A stretch of 34,652 nucleotides of DNA. It comes from Ponticaulis sp. (GTDB taxonomy: Bacteria > Pseudomonadota > Alphaproteobacteria > Caulobacterales > Hyphomonadaceae). Position numbers and translations under genes: made by a program. The notes under the pieces were generated by a model, which was given only the letters and a program-made list of their open reading frames with translations, was not told the DNA's origin and did no database searches. The stretch is from assembly GCA_002701295.1 (NCBI GenBank), contig NZUJ01000037.1, forward strand, positions 1 through 34,652, read 5' to 3'. Each line of letters opens with the position of its first letter. Positions within the stretch are counted from its first letter, which is position 1. Positions 2,273 to 27,162 of this stretch are shown here, piece after piece.

Positions 2273-3223
2273 TTGAAAATGTTGATCTATTATCTGAGTT
2301 ATCTTTATTTCCCAGCTGTTCTTTTGCTCGGAATTTGCGGCTGGAAGTCGCGTGGGTTCTCCCGCGTCGCCTGTCTGGTTCTGATCTTTGGATTGAGCGT
2401 GCTGGCTTATGCCCGCTTCATCGAACCGCGATTAATAACAGTGCAGCAGACTGAAATTCTGTTGCCTGGCGCAGACGAGACAAGCGACAGTGTGACCTTC
2501 CTTCTGTTTTCAGACACCCACCTCGGCCTGTTCGGCAACGCCATGCCGATTGAGCGCCTCAGCAAGCGTGCAAAAGCGCTGGACTATGATGCCGTCCTGG
2601 TGGCTGGCGATTTCACCTATCACCCCGAACTCGACGCGCTGCCTGACCTGTTTGACGCGCTGCAAGACTTCGACAAACCGGTCTATGGCGTGTTTGGCAA
2701 TCATGATGTTGGCCTGCCGGGCCCCGACCTCAGCCTGCCGCTCACCGGGTATTTTCAGACGCTCGACGGATTTGAACTTCTGCAAAACCGGACAACTGTT
2801 CTGAACATTGATGGTCTAGAGGTCTGGCTTACCGGCACGTCTGACCTCTGGCAGCGGCGCATCAGCTATCCGCAGGACAACCCGCCACCCGGTGTGCCGC
2901 GCATCATCCTGACCCATAATCCCGACCTCGCCATAGAAGTGCCGGCGGACGTACAGTTCGACCTGATGTTTGCTGGTCACACACACGGCGGACAAATCCG
3001 CATCCCCGGCCTGTATGAATCACACATTCCCTCAGAATACGGTTTTGACATGGATCTCCATGAGGTGATGACCCAGCAAGGCGAGCGCCCGGTCTTCGTG
3101 ACCTCCGGCACGGGCATGGTTGGCCTGCCCATGCGGTTTCTCATTCCACCCCGGCTGGATCTTGTGACAGTTCGCCTGGCGAATCCCCCCGATCAGCCGG
3201 AACTGGCGACCGATGCAAACTGA
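2273..3223 (+). CDS. Membrane-anchored metallophosphoesterase
   Basis: Two hydrophobic segments (about residues 5-22 and 32-48) precede a calcineurin-like phosphoesterase domain. The metal-binding motifs appear in order: FSDTHLG (Asp81, His83), AGDFTYHP (Asp113), FGNHDVG (Asn143, His144), LTHNPDL and AGHTHGGQ. This matches the YkuE-type family of membrane-tethered phosphohydrolases, some members of which act on lipids. The substrate here is unknown. The TTG at 2273 is preferred because an AGGAG ends 9 bases upstream; the ATG at 2279 would have a 15-base spacing. The 3' end overlaps the end of the convergent Amt fusion gene by 31 bases. The gene is divergent from asd. Confidence 0.85.
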   Translation: MKMLIYYLSYLYFPAVLLLGICGWKSRGFSRVACLVLIFGLSVLAYARFIEPRLITVQQTEILLPGADETSDSVTFLLFSDTHLGLFGNAMPIERLSKRAKALDYDAVLVAGDFTYHPELDALPDLFDALQDFDKPVYGVFGNHDVGLPGPDLSLPLTGYFQTLDGFELLQNRTTVLNIDGLEVWLTGTSDLWQRRISYPQDNPPPGVPRIILTHNPDLAIEVPADVQFDLMFAGHTHGGQIRIPGLYESHIPSEYGFDMDLHEVMTQQGERPVFVTSGTGMVGLPMRFLIPPRLDLVTVRLANPPDQPELATDAN

Positions 3224-6200
3224 CCGGGACGACTGTTCCCACGCATTGTCTCTGCCGCTTTCTGAAGAGCTTCAATACGGACTTCGTGCGTGAGAAGTCT
3301 GGCGACATAGTCGGGCGCCTCTCTTTGCAACTGGGCGATCGGAACCGCCGCCCCAACCAGATAGCCCTGAATTTCGTCGCATCCGAATTCGACCAGTGCA
3401 GCGAACGCATCGACAGTCTCAACGCCTTCAGCAACGATATTCATATTCAAGGCTCGTCCCAGGCGAATGATCGTCCCGATGATTTCGTGACCATTCTCGC
3501 TGTCCTTAAGGCCCTGCACAAAAGACCGGTCAATCTTGATCGTGTCGAACGGAAAGCGGCTGAGATATCCGAGCGAGGAGTAGCCGGTGCCGAAATCATC
3601 TAGCGCGATCTTCACGCCCAGTTCCTTGAGTCGACTGAAGACTTTCAAAGCCCGTTGGTCATCATCAATGAGAACGCTTTCGGTGATCTCGATCTCGAGG
3701 CGTTCCGGAGCGAGGCCGGAGAACTCGAGCGCGTCTCGAACGGTTTCGATAAAGTTGCGATCACGGAACTGCAGTGGGCTCGCATTCACGCTCACGCGCC
3801 CCTGGCTTGCACCACTCGCGGCATCAACGCACGCCCGGCGAAGCACCCATTTGCCGATCTTGATGATCTGGCCGCACCCTTCTGCCACAGGGATAAAGTC
3901 GGCCGGACTAACCTTGCCGCGCGACGGATGCTCCCAGCGCAGAAGTGCTTCATAGCTGGCGATTTCACCCGTCTTGGTGTCCAGACGCGGCTGGTAATGA
4001 ACCTCGAACTGTTCGTTCTCAAGCGCGATGGCAATATCGAGCTCCAGAAGCTGACGGTGACGGACATGATCATCCATACCGGCCTCAAACATGGCATAGC
4101 GGTTCCGGCCCTGGCTTTTCGCATGGTAGAGCGCGGTATCCGCTCGCGTGATCAGACCAACATCTTCAATGCCGTCGCGCGGACAAAGCGCGATACCGAC
4201 AGACGCACCCACGGAAACCTTCACGCCATCAGGCAGAAGGATGGACTGGTTCAGATCATGCACCAGCCGCAAAGCAAGATCCCGCGCCTGATTGGCAAAG
4301 GTGATCCCAATCTGGAGGATCGCAAATTCGTCTCCGCCAAGCCGCGCAACCGTGTCACGAGGCCCGACACTCGCCATCAGTCGCTCAGACGTCACCTTCA
4401 GCACTTCATCACCAGCGGCATGTCCATAGAGATCGTTCACGTCCTTGAAGCGATCAAGGTCAATCAGCACCACGGCTGACAGGGTTCCCTGCTTCACTGT
4501 CCGGTCGATCATATGGCCAAGACGGTCATTGAACAGCGCGCGGTTTGGAAGGCCGGTCAGCGGGTCATGCTGAGCCAGATAGCGGATGCGCTCTTCAGCC
4601 TTGCGGCGCTCTCGAACATCAACAATCGCCAGAACACGCGTCACCCGGCCGCGAAGAACAATATTCCGACCGCGCACCTCGACAGGGATGATCTGACCCT
4701 TCTTATCCAGAATATTCAGGTCGCATGTCGACGACACTTCACTGCGGGAAAGATTGTCCAGAACGCCCATATCATCGTGACGGAAGAAATCTGTCAGCGG
4801 TCGATCCATGATCTCTTCGAGCGGCATATTGAGAAGGCGGCTCAGTGCGGCGTTACCATCAACAATGATGTCACCTACCGAGAGGCAAAGTGCCTCAAAC
4901 GTGGCATCCGCAAGTGCTGATAGACGTTCGGCCTCTTCGACAGCGCGCTGGGCATCGCGGGCCTCTGAGCGCTCGTGCTCGATTTGCTGGAGATTATCGA
5001 GAAGCGCATTGAAGGTGAGGATCAGGCGCTCAGCTTCGTCGCCTGCATCCACAGGCAAGCGTACGTTCAGGTCAGCCGTGCCGCGAACCAGCTCATCCAT
5101 GGCTTCTTCGACATGGCCAATACCAATGCGCGTATCATGTTCGCTTTCATTCAGGCCGCGTTCCTCAGCACCATCGGCCACGCGAATGCCCATGCTTTCA
5201 CGGAGCAGATAGAAGAAGGCCAGGCCAGAGCCAAACGCCCAGACAAAGTTCAGGCCGACGCCCGTCAGCTGAACCAGAAACTGATCCCAGCGGTTTGCCA
5301 GCGGGAGACTGGCCTCAGGCGCAAGGAACGCCAGAAGCAAGGTTCCAACGACGCCCGCGCCAGCATGTGTTCCAATGGCACCGACAGCGTCGTCCACCTT
5401 GAGATAGCGTTCAAGCAGATGGTTCAGACCGTTCGAAACGACCCCACCAATCAGACCAACAATAATGGCGCTTCCAGGCGAGAGGATCGCGCAACCTGCC
5501 GTCACAGCCACCAGACCGCCAATCATCCCGCAAAGAACTTTTTCTGGCAGGACGGCACGATCGCGCGTCATCGTCCAGATATAGCCCGCCACCGTGCCCG
5601 CGCTGCCTGCCAACAGAGTTGCCGCAATGATGGGACCAATAGACATATCCGCCTTGATGGTCGAACCACCATTAAAGCCAATCCAACCCACAAACAGAAA
5701 AATAGCCCCTGTAGAGGCGAGTACAGCACTATGTCCGGAAAACCGCACGGGCTTTCCGTCGTTCTGGAAGCGTCCGCTTCGTGATCCGAGGATCAGACAA
5801 GCCGCCAGTGTGAGCCATCCGCCCGTCGCGTGAACAACCGTCGAGCCCGCAAAGTCGACAAAACCCATATTGCCGAGAAATGCCCCGTCATTCGGGCCAA
5901 GCGCAGCCCCCCAGCTCCAGTGAACGAAGATGGGATAGATCAGCCCCCCAATAAAAAGCGATCCAAGCGTGTAGGCTGACAGGCGCATGCGTTCTGCCAC
6001 ACCGCCAGAAACAATTGTTGCCGCCGTGCCGCAAAACATGGCCTGAAAGATGAAGAAGATAATACCGCGGGCATCCAGATCATTCAGCCCGATCATCTGC
6101 ATGTCCCAGCCCACCGCGAGTATGGATGACGCGCCAAACGCCAGCATGAACCCAACAGCAGCGAAGGCCAGTGTCGAAACGCAAAAGTCCATGACGTTTT

Positions 6201-6429
6201 TCATGGCGACATTGATGGAATTCTTGGACCGCACCATGCCCGCTTCGAGCAGCAAAAATCCGATCTGCATCAGCATCACAAGTACAGCAGCAATAATCAC
6301 CCAGACCGAGTCCAACAGGCCCTGAATGTCCGTTTCGGGAGGCGAGATCGCAGATTGCGCATATGCGCCGCTGCCGCTCGCAAGGAGGGTCAACAAAACC
6401 AGTGCTTTCACGATGTTGCTTCGGACCAC
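3193..6429 (-). CDS. Ammonium transporter fused to HAMP-like, PAS, GGDEF and EAL domains
   Basis: Residue numbers count from an in-frame TTG at 6450. The GTG at 6429, 4 bases after a GGGGGT run, is the likelier start. A signal peptide (to about residue 31, AYA-Q) precedes a full Amt domain (about 40-420). Amt marks include VDFAGSTVVH with Asp199 and His207, GFNGGS, and GTHAG with His362, so both pore histidines remain. The Amt tail motif survives as GLNESEH, and a HAMP-like helix pair (about 446-490), coiled coil and PAS domain (about 508-612) follow. A GGDEF domain (about 625-785) has an intact GGDEF at 705-709. An EAL domain (about 800-1040) has EAL at 834-836, Asn889, DDFGTG at 951-956, Lys972, Glu1008 and Gln1028. 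AmtB topology places the C-terminus in the cytoplasm, so the protein may couple ammonium to cyclic-di-GMP turnover. No glnK is adjacent. Confidence 0.93.
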   Translation of the reverse strand: MVRSNIVKALVLLTLLASGSGAYAQSAISPPETDIQGLLDSVWVIIAAVLVMLMQIGFLLLEAGMVRSKNSINVAMKNVMDFCVSTLAFAAVGFMLAFGASSILAVGWDMQMIGLNDLDARGIIFFIFQAMFCGTAATIVSGGVAERMRLSAYTLGSLFIGGLIYPIFVHWSWGAALGPNDGAFLGNMGFVDFAGSTVVHATGGWLTLAACLILGSRSGRFQNDGKPVRFSGHSAVLASTGAIFLFVGWIGFNGGSTIKADMSIGPIIAATLLAGSAGTVAGYIWTMTRDRAVLPEKVLCGMIGGLVAVTAGCAILSPGSAIIVGLIGGVVSNGLNHLLERYLKVDDAVGAIGTHAGAGVVGTLLLAFLAPEASLPLANRWDQFLVQLTGVGLNFVWAFGSGLAFFYLLRESMGIRVADGAEERGLNESEHDTRIGIGHVEEAMDELVRGTADLNVRLPVDAGDEAERLILTFNALLDNLQQIEHERSEARDAQRAVEEAERLSALADATFEALCLSVGDIIVDGNAALSRLLNMPLEEIMDRPLTDFFRHDDMGVLDNLSRSEVSSTCDLNILDKKGQIIPVEVRGRNIVLRGRVTRVLAIVDVRERRKAEERIRYLAQHDPLTGLPNRALFNDRLGHMIDRTVKQGTLSAVVLIDLDRFKDVNDLYGHAAGDEVLKVTSERLMASVGPRDTVARLGGDEFAILQIGITFANQARDLALRLVHDLNQSILLPDGVKVSVGASVGIALCPRDGIEDVGLITRADTALYHAKSQGRNRYAMFEAGMDDHVRHRQLLELDIAIALENEQFEVHYQPRLDTKTGEIASYEALLRWEHPSRGKVSPADFIPVAEGCGQIIKIGKWVLRRACVDAASGASQGRVSVNASPLQFRDRNFIETVRDALEFSGLAPERLEIEITESVLIDDDQRALKVFSRLKELGVKIALDDFGTGYSSLGYLSRFPFDTIKIDRSFVQGLKDSENGHEIIGTIIRLGRALNMNIVAEGVETVDAFAALVEFGCDEIQGYLVGAAVPIAQLQREAPDYVARLLTHEVRIEALQKAAETMRGNSRPGQFASVASSG

Positions 6430-6450
6430 GTCTACCCCCGGGATTCCCAA

Positions 6451-21094: not shown

Positions 21095-22042
21095 TCAGGC
21101 GGAACAGGAGCCACCACCGAGAACACAAAAGCTGGCGCAGAATTTATGATTGAGCGATACGGGCTTGCGCGACTCTTCCAATGTCGCCCCAAGCTCAAAG
21201 CGCTCATCATAAGGGATCAGCGTACAGGCCAGAACGGTTGCTTCCTGGCCTTTGCGTTTGACCACCATGCGCTGTGATGCGCACATGACCTCTTCAGGAT
21301 CTTTGTTCAGAATACCCCAGCAATCCGTCGTAATTTCGGGCGGATCGTCCTGGGTCTCCATTTCCGGGAACAGAACAAGCGATTTCGGATTGTCCACATC
21401 AAGCTTGAGATCATGTTCCAGAACAAGCGCTCTATAGCCTTCACGCGCCTCATCTTCAGGTTCATGCCACATGGTCCGACCAGCAATCGCCATCTGAAAC
21501 CCGTTTTCAGCAAGCCAGATCATCCCCTTGAGCGTCAGATCAAAGCTACCGGCTCCGCGTTCTTCGTCATGATACCGGCGCGAATAATGATCAAGACTGA
21601 TCCGGAGCGTCAGTCGCTCACCATAAGTCTCTTTGATCGCCAGAAGGCCCTCCATCACACGCGGGCGCATCATTGGCTGCATCGCATTTGTCAGGAGAAG
21701 AACTTCATGTCCCCGTGATAAACACGCGTCCAGAATGGAGATAATCTCCGGTGCCATGAAGGGCTCACCGCCCGTCAGACCAATCTCGATGGGCGTTTCG
21801 CCCGCTGCGTCCAGCTCATCCAGAAATGGCGTCACGTCATTCAGTGACAGATAGACAAGTCGGTCATTCGTAGGCGAGCTTTCAATATAGCAGTTGGCGC
21901 ACTCGATATTGCACAACGTGCCGGTGTTGAACCAAAGCGTCTGGGTTCCTGAATAGGCCACATAGGCGCGCGTTTCACCTTTTGCGGTGATGTCAGGATG
22001 GGAGAATTTTTCGGATGGACGGTCAGAAATCAATGCTGTCAT
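21095..22042 (-). CDS. Radical SAM protein with C-terminal auxiliary-type cysteines
   Basis: The CxxxCxxC cluster (LCNIECANC, Cys44, Cys48, Cys51) binds the [4Fe-4S] that cleaves S-adenosylmethionine. GLTGGEPFMAPEI is the SAM-binding GGEP motif. At the C-terminus are Cys302, Cys306 and Cys313 in FCASFCVLGGGSC, with further Cys upstream in TDCWG, VMCAS and LACTL. This looks like a second cluster as in SPASM-type enzymes. The substrate is unknown, and no peptide precursor is recognisable nearby. No good ribosome site precedes the ATG at 22042. It is divergent from the hydrolase-OsmC fusion and convergent with the sensor gene (7-base gap). Confidence 0.85.
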   Translation of the reverse strand: MTALISDRPSEKFSHPDITAKGETRAYVAYSGTQTLWFNTGTLCNIECANCYIESSPTNDRLVYLSLNDVTPFLDELDAAGETPIEIGLTGGEPFMAPEIISILDACLSRGHEVLLLTNAMQPMMRPRVMEGLLAIKETYGERLTLRISLDHYSRRYHDEERGAGSFDLTLKGMIWLAENGFQMAIAGRTMWHEPEDEAREGYRALVLEHDLKLDVDNPKSLVLFPEMETQDDPPEITTDCWGILNKDPEEVMCASQRMVVKRKGQEATVLACTLIPYDERFELGATLEESRKPVSLNHKFCASFCVLGGGSCSA

Positions 22043-22105
22043 TCAAGGGATGATAGTTCAGTCCGGGAAAATCAAAACACATAATTTTTCAAGTCGAAGT
22101 GACAC

Positions 22106-22147
22106 TTGGTCAGATTTTCCGAGACGGTCCGTTTCGAAACTGACCAA
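22106..22147. promoter_or_regulatory. Inverted repeat in the radical SAM / hydrolase-OsmC intergenic region
   Basis: ttggtcag (22106-22113) and ctgaccaa (22140-22147) are perfect 8-bp inverted copies separated by 26 bases, in the middle of the 172-base gap between two divergent genes. The half-site spacing would suit a dimeric or tetrameric regulator. No regulator gene is adjacent, so this is tentative. Confidence 0.4.
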
Positions 22148-22214
22148 ACCTTCCTATTTTGACAGGACCGGTCACCTCTTTGCCGGAACAGGACACAAGC
22201 GTCGGAGCCAACTC

Positions 22215-23423
22215 ATGACACGATCTGAGCGCATTACCTTTCCCGGTCACTCCGGAGACATGCTTGCCGCGCGTCTTGATCTGCCTGCCGGCCCGCCGCT
22301 TGGGTATGCGCTGTTCGCTCATTGCTTCTCATGTTCAATGAATGTGCTGGCCGCATCCCGGGTCTCGCAGGGACTGGTTGACGAAGGCTTCGCTGTTTTG
22401 CGCTTTGACTTCACGGGTCTTGGCGCATCTGAAGGCGATTTCGAGAACACAAATTTCAGTTCGAATGTGCAGGACCTGGTCGCGGCTGCGAACTGGCTGA
22501 CGGAAACATATGGCCGCGTCGATGTTTTGATTGGTCACAGCCTTGGCGGCGCTGCCTGTATTGTTGCAGCAAATCAGCTTCCCATGGTGAAGGCCGTTGC
22601 GACGATCGGCGCGCCATCAGACGCCGGTCACGTGCTCAATCAGATCAGCGATCATCTCGGCACGATCGAAGATATCGGCTCAGCCGATGTGAAGCTTGCC
22701 GGGCGATCCTTCACCATTCTCAAGCAATTTGTCGATGATGTGCGCGACGCGAAAGTCTGTCATGCGGCATCGACGCTCCGGCGCCCTCTTCTCGTCCTGC
22801 ATTCACCGCTTGATGAAGTCGTCGGTATAGAGAATGCCTCCGGCTTGTTTGTTGCGGCACGCCATCCAAAGAGTTTTGTCAGCCTTGATGATGCTGACCA
22901 TTTGCTCACGCAGCCGGAAGACGCTGCGCATGCATCTCGCGTGATCGCCGCCTGGGCGGAGACGTATATTGATGTCGCTGCAGAAGCCCCACCTAAAGCC
23001 CCGACGGGCTCTGTGCGTGTGAAAGAGACCGGCCAGGGCAATTATGCCAATTTTGTCGTGACCGATGATCACGTGCTCAGAGCAGACGAACCGCTCAATC
23101 ATGGCGGTCTGAACACCGGCCCTGCGCCTTACGATTATCTCTGCGCAGCCCTGGGTGCATGCACCTCCATGACAATCCGCATGTATGCCGAGCGCAAAGA
23201 CTGGCCTGTGCAAAGTATTCGCGTGGATGTTCGCCATGATCGCTCTGAACAGGCCGACGAAACAGGACGAAAAGCGGATATTTTTACCAGAGACCTGAAA
23301 ATAGAGGGCCCGTTGGAAGCTGATCAGTTGGAACGATTGAAAGAGATTGCAGATAAATGCCCCGTCCACCGAACACTTCACGCGGTTTCGACAATTGAGA
23401 CACGACTCAGTTCAAATTCTTGA
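22215..23423 (+). CDS. Alpha/beta hydrolase fused to an OsmC domain
   Basis: A 402-residue protein starts at the ATG at 22215, preceded by GGAG with a 7-base spacer. The first 255 or so residues are an alpha/beta hydrolase, with nucleophile Ser109 in GHSLGG, an acid Asp in HSPLDEVV and a His in DADHLL. Residues from about 265 on form an OsmC/Ohr-type domain. It has the conserved cysteine pair Cys316 (LGACTSMT) and Cys382 (KCPVHRTL). OsmC proteins reduce organic hydroperoxides through such cysteines. The fusion may combine ester hydrolysis with peroxide reduction, perhaps of lipid hydroperoxides; this is inference. It is divergent from the radical SAM gene. Confidence 0.92.
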   Translation: MTRSERITFPGHSGDMLAARLDLPAGPPLGYALFAHCFSCSMNVLAASRVSQGLVDEGFAVLRFDFTGLGASEGDFENTNFSSNVQDLVAAANWLTETYGRVDVLIGHSLGGAACIVAANQLPMVKAVATIGAPSDAGHVLNQISDHLGTIEDIGSADVKLAGRSFTILKQFVDDVRDAKVCHAASTLRRPLLVLHSPLDEVVGIENASGLFVAARHPKSFVSLDDADHLLTQPEDAAHASRVIAAWAETYIDVAAEAPPKAPTGSVRVKETGQGNYANFVVTDDHVLRADEPLNHGGLNTGPAPYDYLCAALGACTSMTIRMYAERKDWPVQSIRVDVRHDRSEQADETGRKADIFTRDLKIEGPLEADQLERLKEIADKCPVHRTLHAVSTIETRLSSNS

Positions 23424-25099: not shown

Positions 25100-25771
25100 A
25101 TGCACATTCTAGTCATTGAAGATGATCAGGAAATGGCGAGCTTCGTTCAGCGTGTGCTGAGCGAAGCGGGCCACACGGTCGATACCGTCCATGACGGCGA
25201 GTCGGGTCTTAACATGGCCCGCTCAATGCCCGTGGATCTGCTGATCGTTGACCGCATGCTGCCCAAGAAAAGCGGCGTCGACCTGGTCCGTGAGTTCCGG
25301 GACAGCGGGGGCAATGCGCCTGCCCTGTTCCTGTCTGCACTGGGCGATGTCGATCACCGCGTCGAAGGCCTGCAGGCCGGTGGCGATGATTATCTGACCA
25401 AGCCTTTTGCCCCGAGTGAACTGGCTGCGCGCGTCGAAGCGCTTGGCCGCCGCGGTGGTTCGGAAGCCCCGATCACCACACTCAAGGTCGGTGATCTGGA
25501 AATGAACCTCCTGGCCCGTACCGTGACACGTGGTGAGGAAGCCATTGATCTGCAGCCGCGCGAGTTCCGCCTTCTGGAGTTCCTCATGCGAAATGCCGGT
25601 CAGGTGGTCACGCGGACCATGTTGCTTGAAAAAGTCTGGGACTATCACTTCGATCCTCAGACAAATGTCATCGACGTTCACATCTCGCGTCTGCGCAGCA
25701 AGATCGACAAGGAATTTGATCGTCCGCTTCTGCACACAGTTCGCGGCGCGGGGTATCGCCTTCAGGCATGA
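25100..25771 (+). CDS. OmpR-family response regulator
   Basis: This 223-residue protein has a receiver domain with acidic pocket EDD (residues 7-9) and phospho-acceptor Asp51 in LLIVDRMLP. The conserved Lys lies in LTKPFAPSEL. A winged-helix DNA-binding domain follows (LQPREFRLLEFLMRNAGQVVTRTMLLEKVW, ending VRGAGYRL). It would bind DNA as a dimer when phosphorylated by the adjacent kinase. Its stop overlaps the kinase start by 4 bases (ATGA). Confidence 0.95.
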   Translation: MHILVIEDDQEMASFVQRVLSEAGHTVDTVHDGESGLNMARSMPVDLLIVDRMLPKKSGVDLVREFRDSGGNAPALFLSALGDVDHRVEGLQAGGDDYLTKPFAPSELAARVEALGRRGGSEAPITTLKVGDLEMNLLARTVTRGEEAIDLQPREFRLLEFLMRNAGQVVTRTMLLEKVWDYHFDPQTNVIDVHISRLRSKIDKEFDRPLLHTVRGAGYRLQA

Positions 25772-27162
25772 AGCTGCCACTTCCACCATTCATGCGGACC
25801 ACCACGTTTCGACTCGCGGTGGTCCACGCATTAATGTTCCTCTTCTTCACCTTCGGACTACTGGTTTACCTGTTCTATTCCACAGCCGGGTATATGCGGT
25901 CGGAATCTGTGCGGGAGCTGGATGGCGAAGTGCAGGCGCTCGCCGCAGCTTTTAATGCTGGTGGGATGGACCGGTTGAACCAGTCGGTCATTGAACGCTC
26001 GTCTGTTCCAGGTCCATTTTTCTACGTTCTTCAGGACCCGACAGGTCAGTCCGTTTCTGGTGATTTTGCGACTATCCCCGATGATCTTCCTGATCGCGGG
26101 TCGCGGGAAACAAATTTCTCCTATCAGACACTGAACCGCAATGGCGAGCTGGAAACCCGTTCGGCGAATGGCATCATCATTCGCCTACCCAATCAGGCCA
26201 GCCTTCTTGTCGCTTATGATCTCGGCACGCGAACGCAGATTGTGAACCGCATCACACGGACAGTCTGGACGGCCCTGCCCATTGGCCTTGCCATGTCGCT
26301 GATTGGTGGCTTGATCATTTCCCGCTCAGCCGCCCGACGCGCAGAACAGCTCACTCGCACAACCGATGGCGTCATGTCTGGCGACCTGTCCAGCCGCGCG
26401 CCTGTGGTCGGCTCTGGTGACGAGTTCGATCGCTTGTCAGAGCGCATGAACGCCATGCTGGACCGGCTGGAACAGCTCATGCTCACGACGCGCCATGCCG
26501 GTGACGCGATTGCTCACGACCTCCGGTCACCGCTGACCCGTCTGCGCAACAGGCTGGAAGCGGACTTGCGCGATGGCGAAAAGGTCAATCGCGCGGAAAG
26601 CATTGAGCGCACCATTGAGGAAGTCGATGCGGTGCTCGCGACGTTCAACGCCATTCTTAGCCTGTCACGGGTTCAGGCAGGTAATGCCGCTCGTTTCCAG
26701 GATATTGAAGTGAGTGAACTCCTGTCGGAACTTGCAGAGCTTTACGAACCTGCCGCTGAAGAAGCCGGTCTGGAATTCAGCTCGGAGATTGAGCCCGGAC
26801 TTCTCATCGAAGGCGACAAGTCGCTCATTGCTCAGGCGGTAACCAACCTTCTGGACAACGCCATCAAATACACGCCGGAAGGCGGCGCCATGACGCTGCG
26901 TGCTCGCAAAACACGATCGGATGAAGTCGAGCTCTCTGTGACCGATACCGGGCCCGGCATTCCGGAAGCGGACAGAGAACGCGCCGTCAGACGTTTTGTT
27001 CGTCTCGAGGCCAGTCGGACGCAGCCTGGCAATGGATTGGGGCTCGCCATGGTGGATGCCATTGCCCGCCTCCATCAGGGGCGCTTCGACCTGTCGGAAG
27101 GTCCGGGCACACCGCCAAACATTGGTTTGCGCGCCGCATTGACACTTCCCACTGAAGTATAA
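25768..27162 (+). CDS. Sensor histidine kinase
   Basis: The 464-residue kinase has two membrane segments (about 15-38 and 165-187) enclosing a periplasmic sensor region of about 125 residues. A HAMP domain (about 188-242) and a dimerisation helix with His250 in AIAHDLRSPLTRLR follow. The ATP-binding domain has the N box (NLLDNAIKYTP), G1 (DTGPGIP) and G2 (GNGLGLAMV) motifs. It is expected to phosphorylate the adjacent response regulator. Together with the HtrA gene this resembles Cpx-like envelope-stress circuits, though the sensor domain is not recognisable as CpxA. Confidence 0.94.
   Translation: MKLPLPPFMRTTTFRLAVVHALMFLFFTFGLLVYLFYSTAGYMRSESVRELDGEVQALAAAFNAGGMDRLNQSVIERSSVPGPFFYVLQDPTGQSVSGDFATIPDDLPDRGSRETNFSYQTLNRNGELETRSANGIIIRLPNQASLLVAYDLGTRTQIVNRITRTVWTALPIGLAMSLIGGLIISRSAARRAEQLTRTTDGVMSGDLSSRAPVVGSGDEFDRLSERMNAMLDRLEQLMLTTRHAGDAIAHDLRSPLTRLRNRLEADLRDGEKVNRAESIERTIEEVDAVLATFNAILSLSRVQAGNAARFQDIEVSELLSELAELYEPAAEEAGLEFSSEIEPGLLIEGDKSLIAQAVTNLLDNAIKYTPEGGAMTLRARKTRSDEVELSVTDTGPGIPEADRERAVRRFVRLEASRTQPGNGLGLAMVDAIARLHQGRFDLSEGPGTPPNIGLRAALTLPTEV

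Follow-up and report, generated by a model that had tools for sequence, protein, structure and literature searches.

We identified a gene for a fused ammonium transporter (Amt) on a 34,652-nucleotide stretch of Ponticaulis sp. DNA (assembly GCA_002701295.1, contig NZUJ01000037.1; "the window" refers to this whole stretch). A single open frame on the minus strand (3193-6450, 1085 codons from TTG) encodes Amt, HAMP, PAS, GGDEF and EAL domains, and its product, hereafter the receptor, is probably a membrane ammonium receptor that sets the level of cyclic-di-GMP. This reading draws on the domain order, the intact residues of sensor and output, the kinship with solved ammonium sensors and the conservation of the protein. 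The receptor has the Amt/Rh fold with the Phe gate, selectivity residues and twin His all present, and its transducer is fused in the same chain as the Amt, as in known ammonium sensors; by these features it appears to belong to the recognised class of ammonium receptors of the Ks-Amt5 and Sd-Amt1 kind. A sequence-only reading of the window had described an Amt with both pore His, a HAMP-like linker, PAS, GGDEF and EAL in one frame, and this was borne out: Pfam recovered the domains in that order, and H207 and H362 align to H171 and H326 of Ks-Amt5.

Kinship with solved ammonium sensors

The closest solved Amt sequences were those of Ks-Amt5 from Kuenenia (6eu6, E 1.4e-84) and Sd-Amt1 (8qj3 and 8qpf, E 4.8e-76 and 5.2e-76), with other solved Amts far behind (A. 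fulgidus Amt1, 3.3e-36; best E. coli AmtB chain, 2.2e-31). Fold comparison gave the same order, with Z scores of 64.1 for Ks-Amt5, the best match, and 63.2 for Sd-Amt1, then 57.6 and 56.9, all of which denote the same fold. PDB titles name 8qj3 and 8qj4 as the OFF and ON states of 'Receptor Sd-Amt1' and 8qpf as Amt1 of Shewanella denitrificans. The Amt domain of Sd-Amt1 is 40% identical to that of the receptor and carries identical letters at all seven ammonium-site positions described below, and its own GGDEF domain (motif GGEEF), about 40 residues behind the Amt, aligns to receptor residues 602-784. The Sd-Amt1 chain differs in its length of 644-661 residues, with the Amt reaching to ~400 and the GGDEF starting at ~440, and has no PAS plus EAL; the receptor has 1085 residues. 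Pfluger et al. in 2024 reportedly described a HAMP between the Amt and GGDEF of Sd-Amt1, with ammonium said to drive HAMP pairing.

Because Sd-Amt1 carries a GGDEF behind its Amt, proteins that couple an Amt sensor to a cyclic-di-GMP enzyme are already a known kind, of which the receptor, with PAS and EAL, is a variant. The sequence-only reading had named the Kuenenia kinase fusion among known fused Amts and had passed over Sd-Amt1, the closer solved relative with its GGDEF. It had also known of no studied Amt with both GGDEF and EAL; we likewise found no paper on one in the openly available literature, where absence is a weak negative, and papers naming an ammonium transporter, a GGDEF domain and an EAL domain treat them apart in the portions of their text that were accessible. 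The mechanism that it put forward is plausible and its novelty is less than was thought.

Two-ammonium site and pore

According to the accessible part of PMC5764959, Ks-Amt5, an Amt sensor with a fused transducer, holds two ammonium ions by Q24, E31, N47, D50, T51, T109 and T112, binds ammonium without efficient transport and has a pore narrowed by F27, Y30 and F34; it differs from the receptor in its histidine kinase output and, in that part of the source, has no HAMP. Alignment placed Q62, E69, N85, D88, F89, T145 and S148 of the receptor at the seven site positions, F89 and S148 standing where Ks-Amt5 has T51 and T112. The predicted core of the two-ammonium site (Q62, E69, N85, D88 and T145, hereafter QENDT) is therefore present. 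Counting the two solved sensors, 41 signalling-fused Amts were compared and 40 of them keep this core: 24 of the 25 with a GGDEF-EAL output and all 16 with other outputs, the solved sensors among the latter. Thirteen loci that were duplicates or incomplete, L116 among them, were left out of this comparison.

The pore residues of the receptor, F139 and F259 (Phe gate), W180, S263, H207 and H362, are all intact, and among the counterparts of the narrowing residues of Ks-Amt5 (F65, L68 and M72) the first alone is matched. Both features favour a transceptor, a functional ammonium channel in which the output responds to flux or the enzyme part gates the pore. We consider this unlikely: Ks-Amt5 also has these pore residues intact and binds ammonium without efficient transport (PMC5764959, accessible part), and two other Amts in the source genome could do the uptake. 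By analogy with that property of Ks-Amt5, binding is the likelier trigger of the receptor than flux. Of the earlier proposal that ammonium binding or flux is tied to cyclic-di-GMP, the binding link thus stands as the best reading and flux becomes the less likely half.

The two-ammonium-site core was rejected as an exclusive marker of sensors, as it was found in Amts without signalling output too. Core-bearing Amts of this kind (L020-L081) came in many cases from Treponema-like assemblies. PII lies in the frame of the Amt itself in three of the 56 such Amts found by peptide patterns (L022 and L069 by Pfam, L023 by motif). A PII motif check of the whole window returned a single frame, which has the first motif alone and, at 480 residues, is too long for a PII protein.

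GGDEF-EAL output

The GGDEF motif (G705-F709) is intact in the receptor, as in all 26 GGDEF-EAL proteins compared (receptor included). The EAL domain retains E834, R838, N889, E921, E924, D951, D952, K972, E1008, E1011 and Q1028, which we take to be its catalytic set, and this set is complete in 25 of the 26 proteins, the receptor included; L100 has replacements. The RxxD inhibitory site of the GGDEF domain is not formed, since G696 replaces the Arg while D699 is kept, and the Arg is also missing in 8 of 25 relatives. The top family models for the transducer were the cyclic-di-GMP phosphodiesterases DibA and PRK10060, both well below their cut-offs. Its best solved matches were the GGDEF-EAL proteins PA0575, MorA and PA0861 of Pseudomonas aeruginosa, which share its domain order (PA0861 with PAS) at 29-44% identity and differ in that their solved stretches have no Amt sensor.

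Some GGDEF-EAL proteins, such as LapD and FimX, serve as binding adaptors, and loss of one of the two activities is common in tandem GGDEF-EAL proteins. A degenerate output that binds cyclic-di-GMP or GTP with no enzyme activity would fit this background and the missing inhibitory-site Arg; we regard it as very improbable, given that every catalytic residue examined in the GGDEF and EAL domains is present. For an enzymatically active receptor, net phosphodiesterase activity with a GTP-bound GGDEF as helper seems the somewhat likelier net output, and net cyclic-di-GMP synthesis or a two-way switch may be given slightly less than an even chance; the sequence leaves the sign of the output unsettled.

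Conservation of the full-length protein

Full-length homologues (E <= 1e-180, near whole length) were found in 9 of 105 family genomes and 3 of 10 genera, own included. The homologue of Henriciella sp. NORP34 (L011), whose genome is also one of the nine, is 64% identical, and that of a Hyphomicrobiales assembly (L012) 56%. A sample of 385 class genomes gave one further match besides the own (E <= 1e-170; L086, 41% identical). The source genome, whose contig 55 makes up the entire window, is a draft of 3.49 Mb in 133 contigs, a state in which a sequencing or assembly error might join two neighbouring genes, as the sequence-only reading had allowed for. The full-length homologues leave such a join next to no probability and we rejected it; the frame is a real, conserved single protein.

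Presence of the receptor varies within the genus, with four of seven genomes carrying it. The same neighbours have aligned ends ~760 bp apart in G001, G004 and G006, with no receptor match between them; G005 carries the receptor on the contig that also holds those neighbours, ~457 kb away from them. The source genome has three Amt, five GGDEF and four EAL matches. Neither of its two further Amts has the full two-ammonium-site core, and GGDEF and EAL occur together in the receptor and in a 710-codon frame of contig 31.

Distribution of the layout and of other Amt fusions

We searched 398 phylum genomes with a 17-row junction profile that covered the last Amt helix, the C-terminal motif and the HAMP region. 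Any match at 1e-8 occurred in 235 of them, and only 21 matches, from 20 genomes, had E <= 4.3e-25 and spanned the linker; the next match was at 7e-16, and among the matches listed the weaker ones mostly end with the Amt part. Outputs of the 21 were GGDEF and EAL (n = 16), kinase (n = 2), MCPsignal (n = 2) and one in another frame (L109). The database search for Amt, GGDEF and EAL architectures thus found the layout widespread: Amt-linker-GGDEF-EAL proteins occur in 16 of the 398 sampled phylum genomes, own included and L116 counted. In the 15 other phylum proteins GGDEF and EAL were assigned by BLAST against the receptor's own domains and confirmed by Pfam in the five that were scanned. In L109 the Amt and PAS share a frame and the GGDEF and EAL part is encoded in another, a frame break that is either real or due to sequencing.

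Amt fusions with other outputs share a homologous Amt and linker with the receptor and differ in what follows: kinase (L013, L088-L095, L117), Guanylate_cyc (L016) or MCPsignal (L115, L118). Of 13 long Amt frames hand-picked from the class-wide Amt list, 8 have histidine kinase domains after the Amt. Two fusions are cyanobacterial: a Spirulina protein (L013:4257-6884) fuses the Amt to PAS and histidine kinase, and an Oscillatoria protein (L016:5638-9222) to PAS and a class III nucleotide cyclase. L115:1903-4146 and L118:1816-4119 combine the Amt with an MCPsignal chemotaxis domain, which suggests direct ammonium chemoreceptors. Pfam HAMP, searched in 22 other fused proteins, was below the cut-off in L117 and gave no match at E 0.001 in the other 21; a HAMP in all relatives was accordingly rejected, and for those 22 proteins a homologous linker alone is claimed.

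Amt tree and exchange of outputs

The tree comprised 62 Amt domains, among them 23 of the 82 rows without signalling output. L109 was excluded because its output is encoded in another frame, and L117 for its very long branch. The 39 signalling-fused rows fell on one side of a branch with support 96/89, Ks-Amt5 first, and the receptor Amt domain grouped with the known sensors and not with other Amts. Its own group held 11 GGDEF-EAL and 2 chemoreceptor fusions (96/90), one of which, L118, has a long branch and an unsure placement. Sd-Amt1 grouped outside it with the Amt-kinase L095, and the remaining GGDEF-EAL fusions were placed elsewhere, among kinases. A single lineage of GGDEF-EAL Amts found no support in the tree: four changes were needed, at least three of them on well-supported (starred) branches, and 0% of 200 bootstrap trees contained such a lineage. 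Gain and loss of GGDEF-EAL are not distinguishable in this tree; whichever the direction, the outputs of signalling-fused Amts appear to have been exchanged several times.

It is an evenly balanced proposition that one Amt lineage has served as a plug-in ammonium sensor for outputs as varied as kinase, GGDEF, GGDEF-EAL, class III cyclase and chemoreceptor domains. In this reading the two-ammonium site would be older than the fusions, and Amts that bear it without a signalling output may both sense and transport. The greater age of the site is proposed because Amts without signalling output, many with PII, carry it.

Proposed function and points against it

Ammonium binding, signal transfer and enzyme activity with its direction are predicted as follows. 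External ammonium would enter the Amt vestibule and reach a site next to the pore that takes up two ions (Q62, E69, N85, D88, T145 and S148); binding would shift the Amt core and the C-terminal segment; this shift would pass through HAMP and coiled coil to PAS and on to the tandem GGDEF-EAL enzyme, where the balance of cyclic-di-GMP synthesis and breakdown would change. If this is true, ammonium would feed directly into the cyclic-di-GMP level through one protein, with neither two-component relays nor PII involved, and would thereby influence attachment or motility. With its presence in 16 of the 398 phylum genomes, the layout could be a common and little-explored way for nitrogen supply to shape lifestyle. 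Known Amt sensor relatives are trimeric and GGDEF and EAL enzymes usually work as dimers; a trimeric-type sensor driving dimeric-type enzymes would be a test case for signal transfer.

Several observations weigh against a receptor function. With all pore residues kept, the receptor may also transport ammonium. The QENDT core was also present in 3 of 26 hand-picked Amts that have no fused output, and in all 56 pattern-found Amts without signalling output, a biased share that means little because one of the peptide patterns overlaps the ammonium site; what counts is the existence of such Amts, and the site alone is hence no proof of a sensor. Four of the fused Amts (L011, L012, L013 and L016) came from the same site-overlapping patterns. 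A PII-like frame was found at 50 of 59 Amt loci without signalling output (the 56 and three incomplete ones). The receptor is absent from three of the seven genomes of its own genus (G001, G004 and G006), and in the window no biofilm or nitrogen gene adjoins its gene. Finally, the predicted template modelling score (pTM) of 0.47 and the weakly modelled HAMP stretch make any domain arrangement tentative.

Domain architecture, gene start and neighbourhood

The model of the full chain (monomer, 22 aligned sequences) had a mean predicted local distance difference test score (pLDDT) of 85.6, with Amt, PAS, GGDEF and EAL domains well formed and the HAMP stretch and linker (441-520) weak (Table 1). 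The HAMP starts directly after the Amt C-terminal motif GLNESEH, and its stretch was modelled poorly (block pLDDT 47-73). The PAS_9 match (524-613) scored 25.7 bits against a cut-off of 27, and residues 520-611 were modelled as an ordered helix/strand domain (block pLDDT 88-94). The gene had been placed at 3193-6429 by the sequence-only reading; its frame held, and 6429 is an in-frame GTG seven codons inside, which is a start candidate alongside TTG 6450 and a GTG further in, with the start not settled. Cleavage of the N-terminal hydrophobic segment is possible.

Table 1. Features of the receptor gene in the window
Feature	Residues	Position	Strand	Basis
Whole gene, Amt-HAMP-PAS-GGDEF-EAL receptor		3193..6450	-	Open reading frame, Pfam and homologues
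N-terminal hydrophobic segment, possible signal peptide	~1-35	6346..6450	-	Sequence; low model confidence
Amt domain	49-440	5131..6306	-	Pfam Ammonium_transp E 5.9e-96; fold like Ks-Amt5 and Sd-Amt1
HAMP domain	444-489	4984..5121	-	Pfam 30.6 bits, cut-off 25; linker aligned in 17 fused Amts
Helical linker	490-517	4900..4983	-	Model; low confidence at 498-517
PAS domain	520-611	4618..4893	-	Pfam just below cut-off; modelled fold
GGDEF domain	626-784, motif 705-709	4099..4575	-	Pfam E 2.7e-40
EAL domain	806-1033	3352..4035	-	Pfam E 7.9e-72

The receptor gene is convergent with a phosphoesterase gene on one side and divergent from a glyoxalase-like gene on the other. An operon with nitrogen genes was rejected, glnE being ~9.5 kb away with no functional link seen. 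Elsewhere in the window, one frame (21987-23423, plus strand) joins alpha/beta-hydrolase and OsmC domains, and a pair of response regulator and HAMP histidine kinase genes (25100-27162, plus strand) lies directly behind a trypsin/PDZ protease gene.

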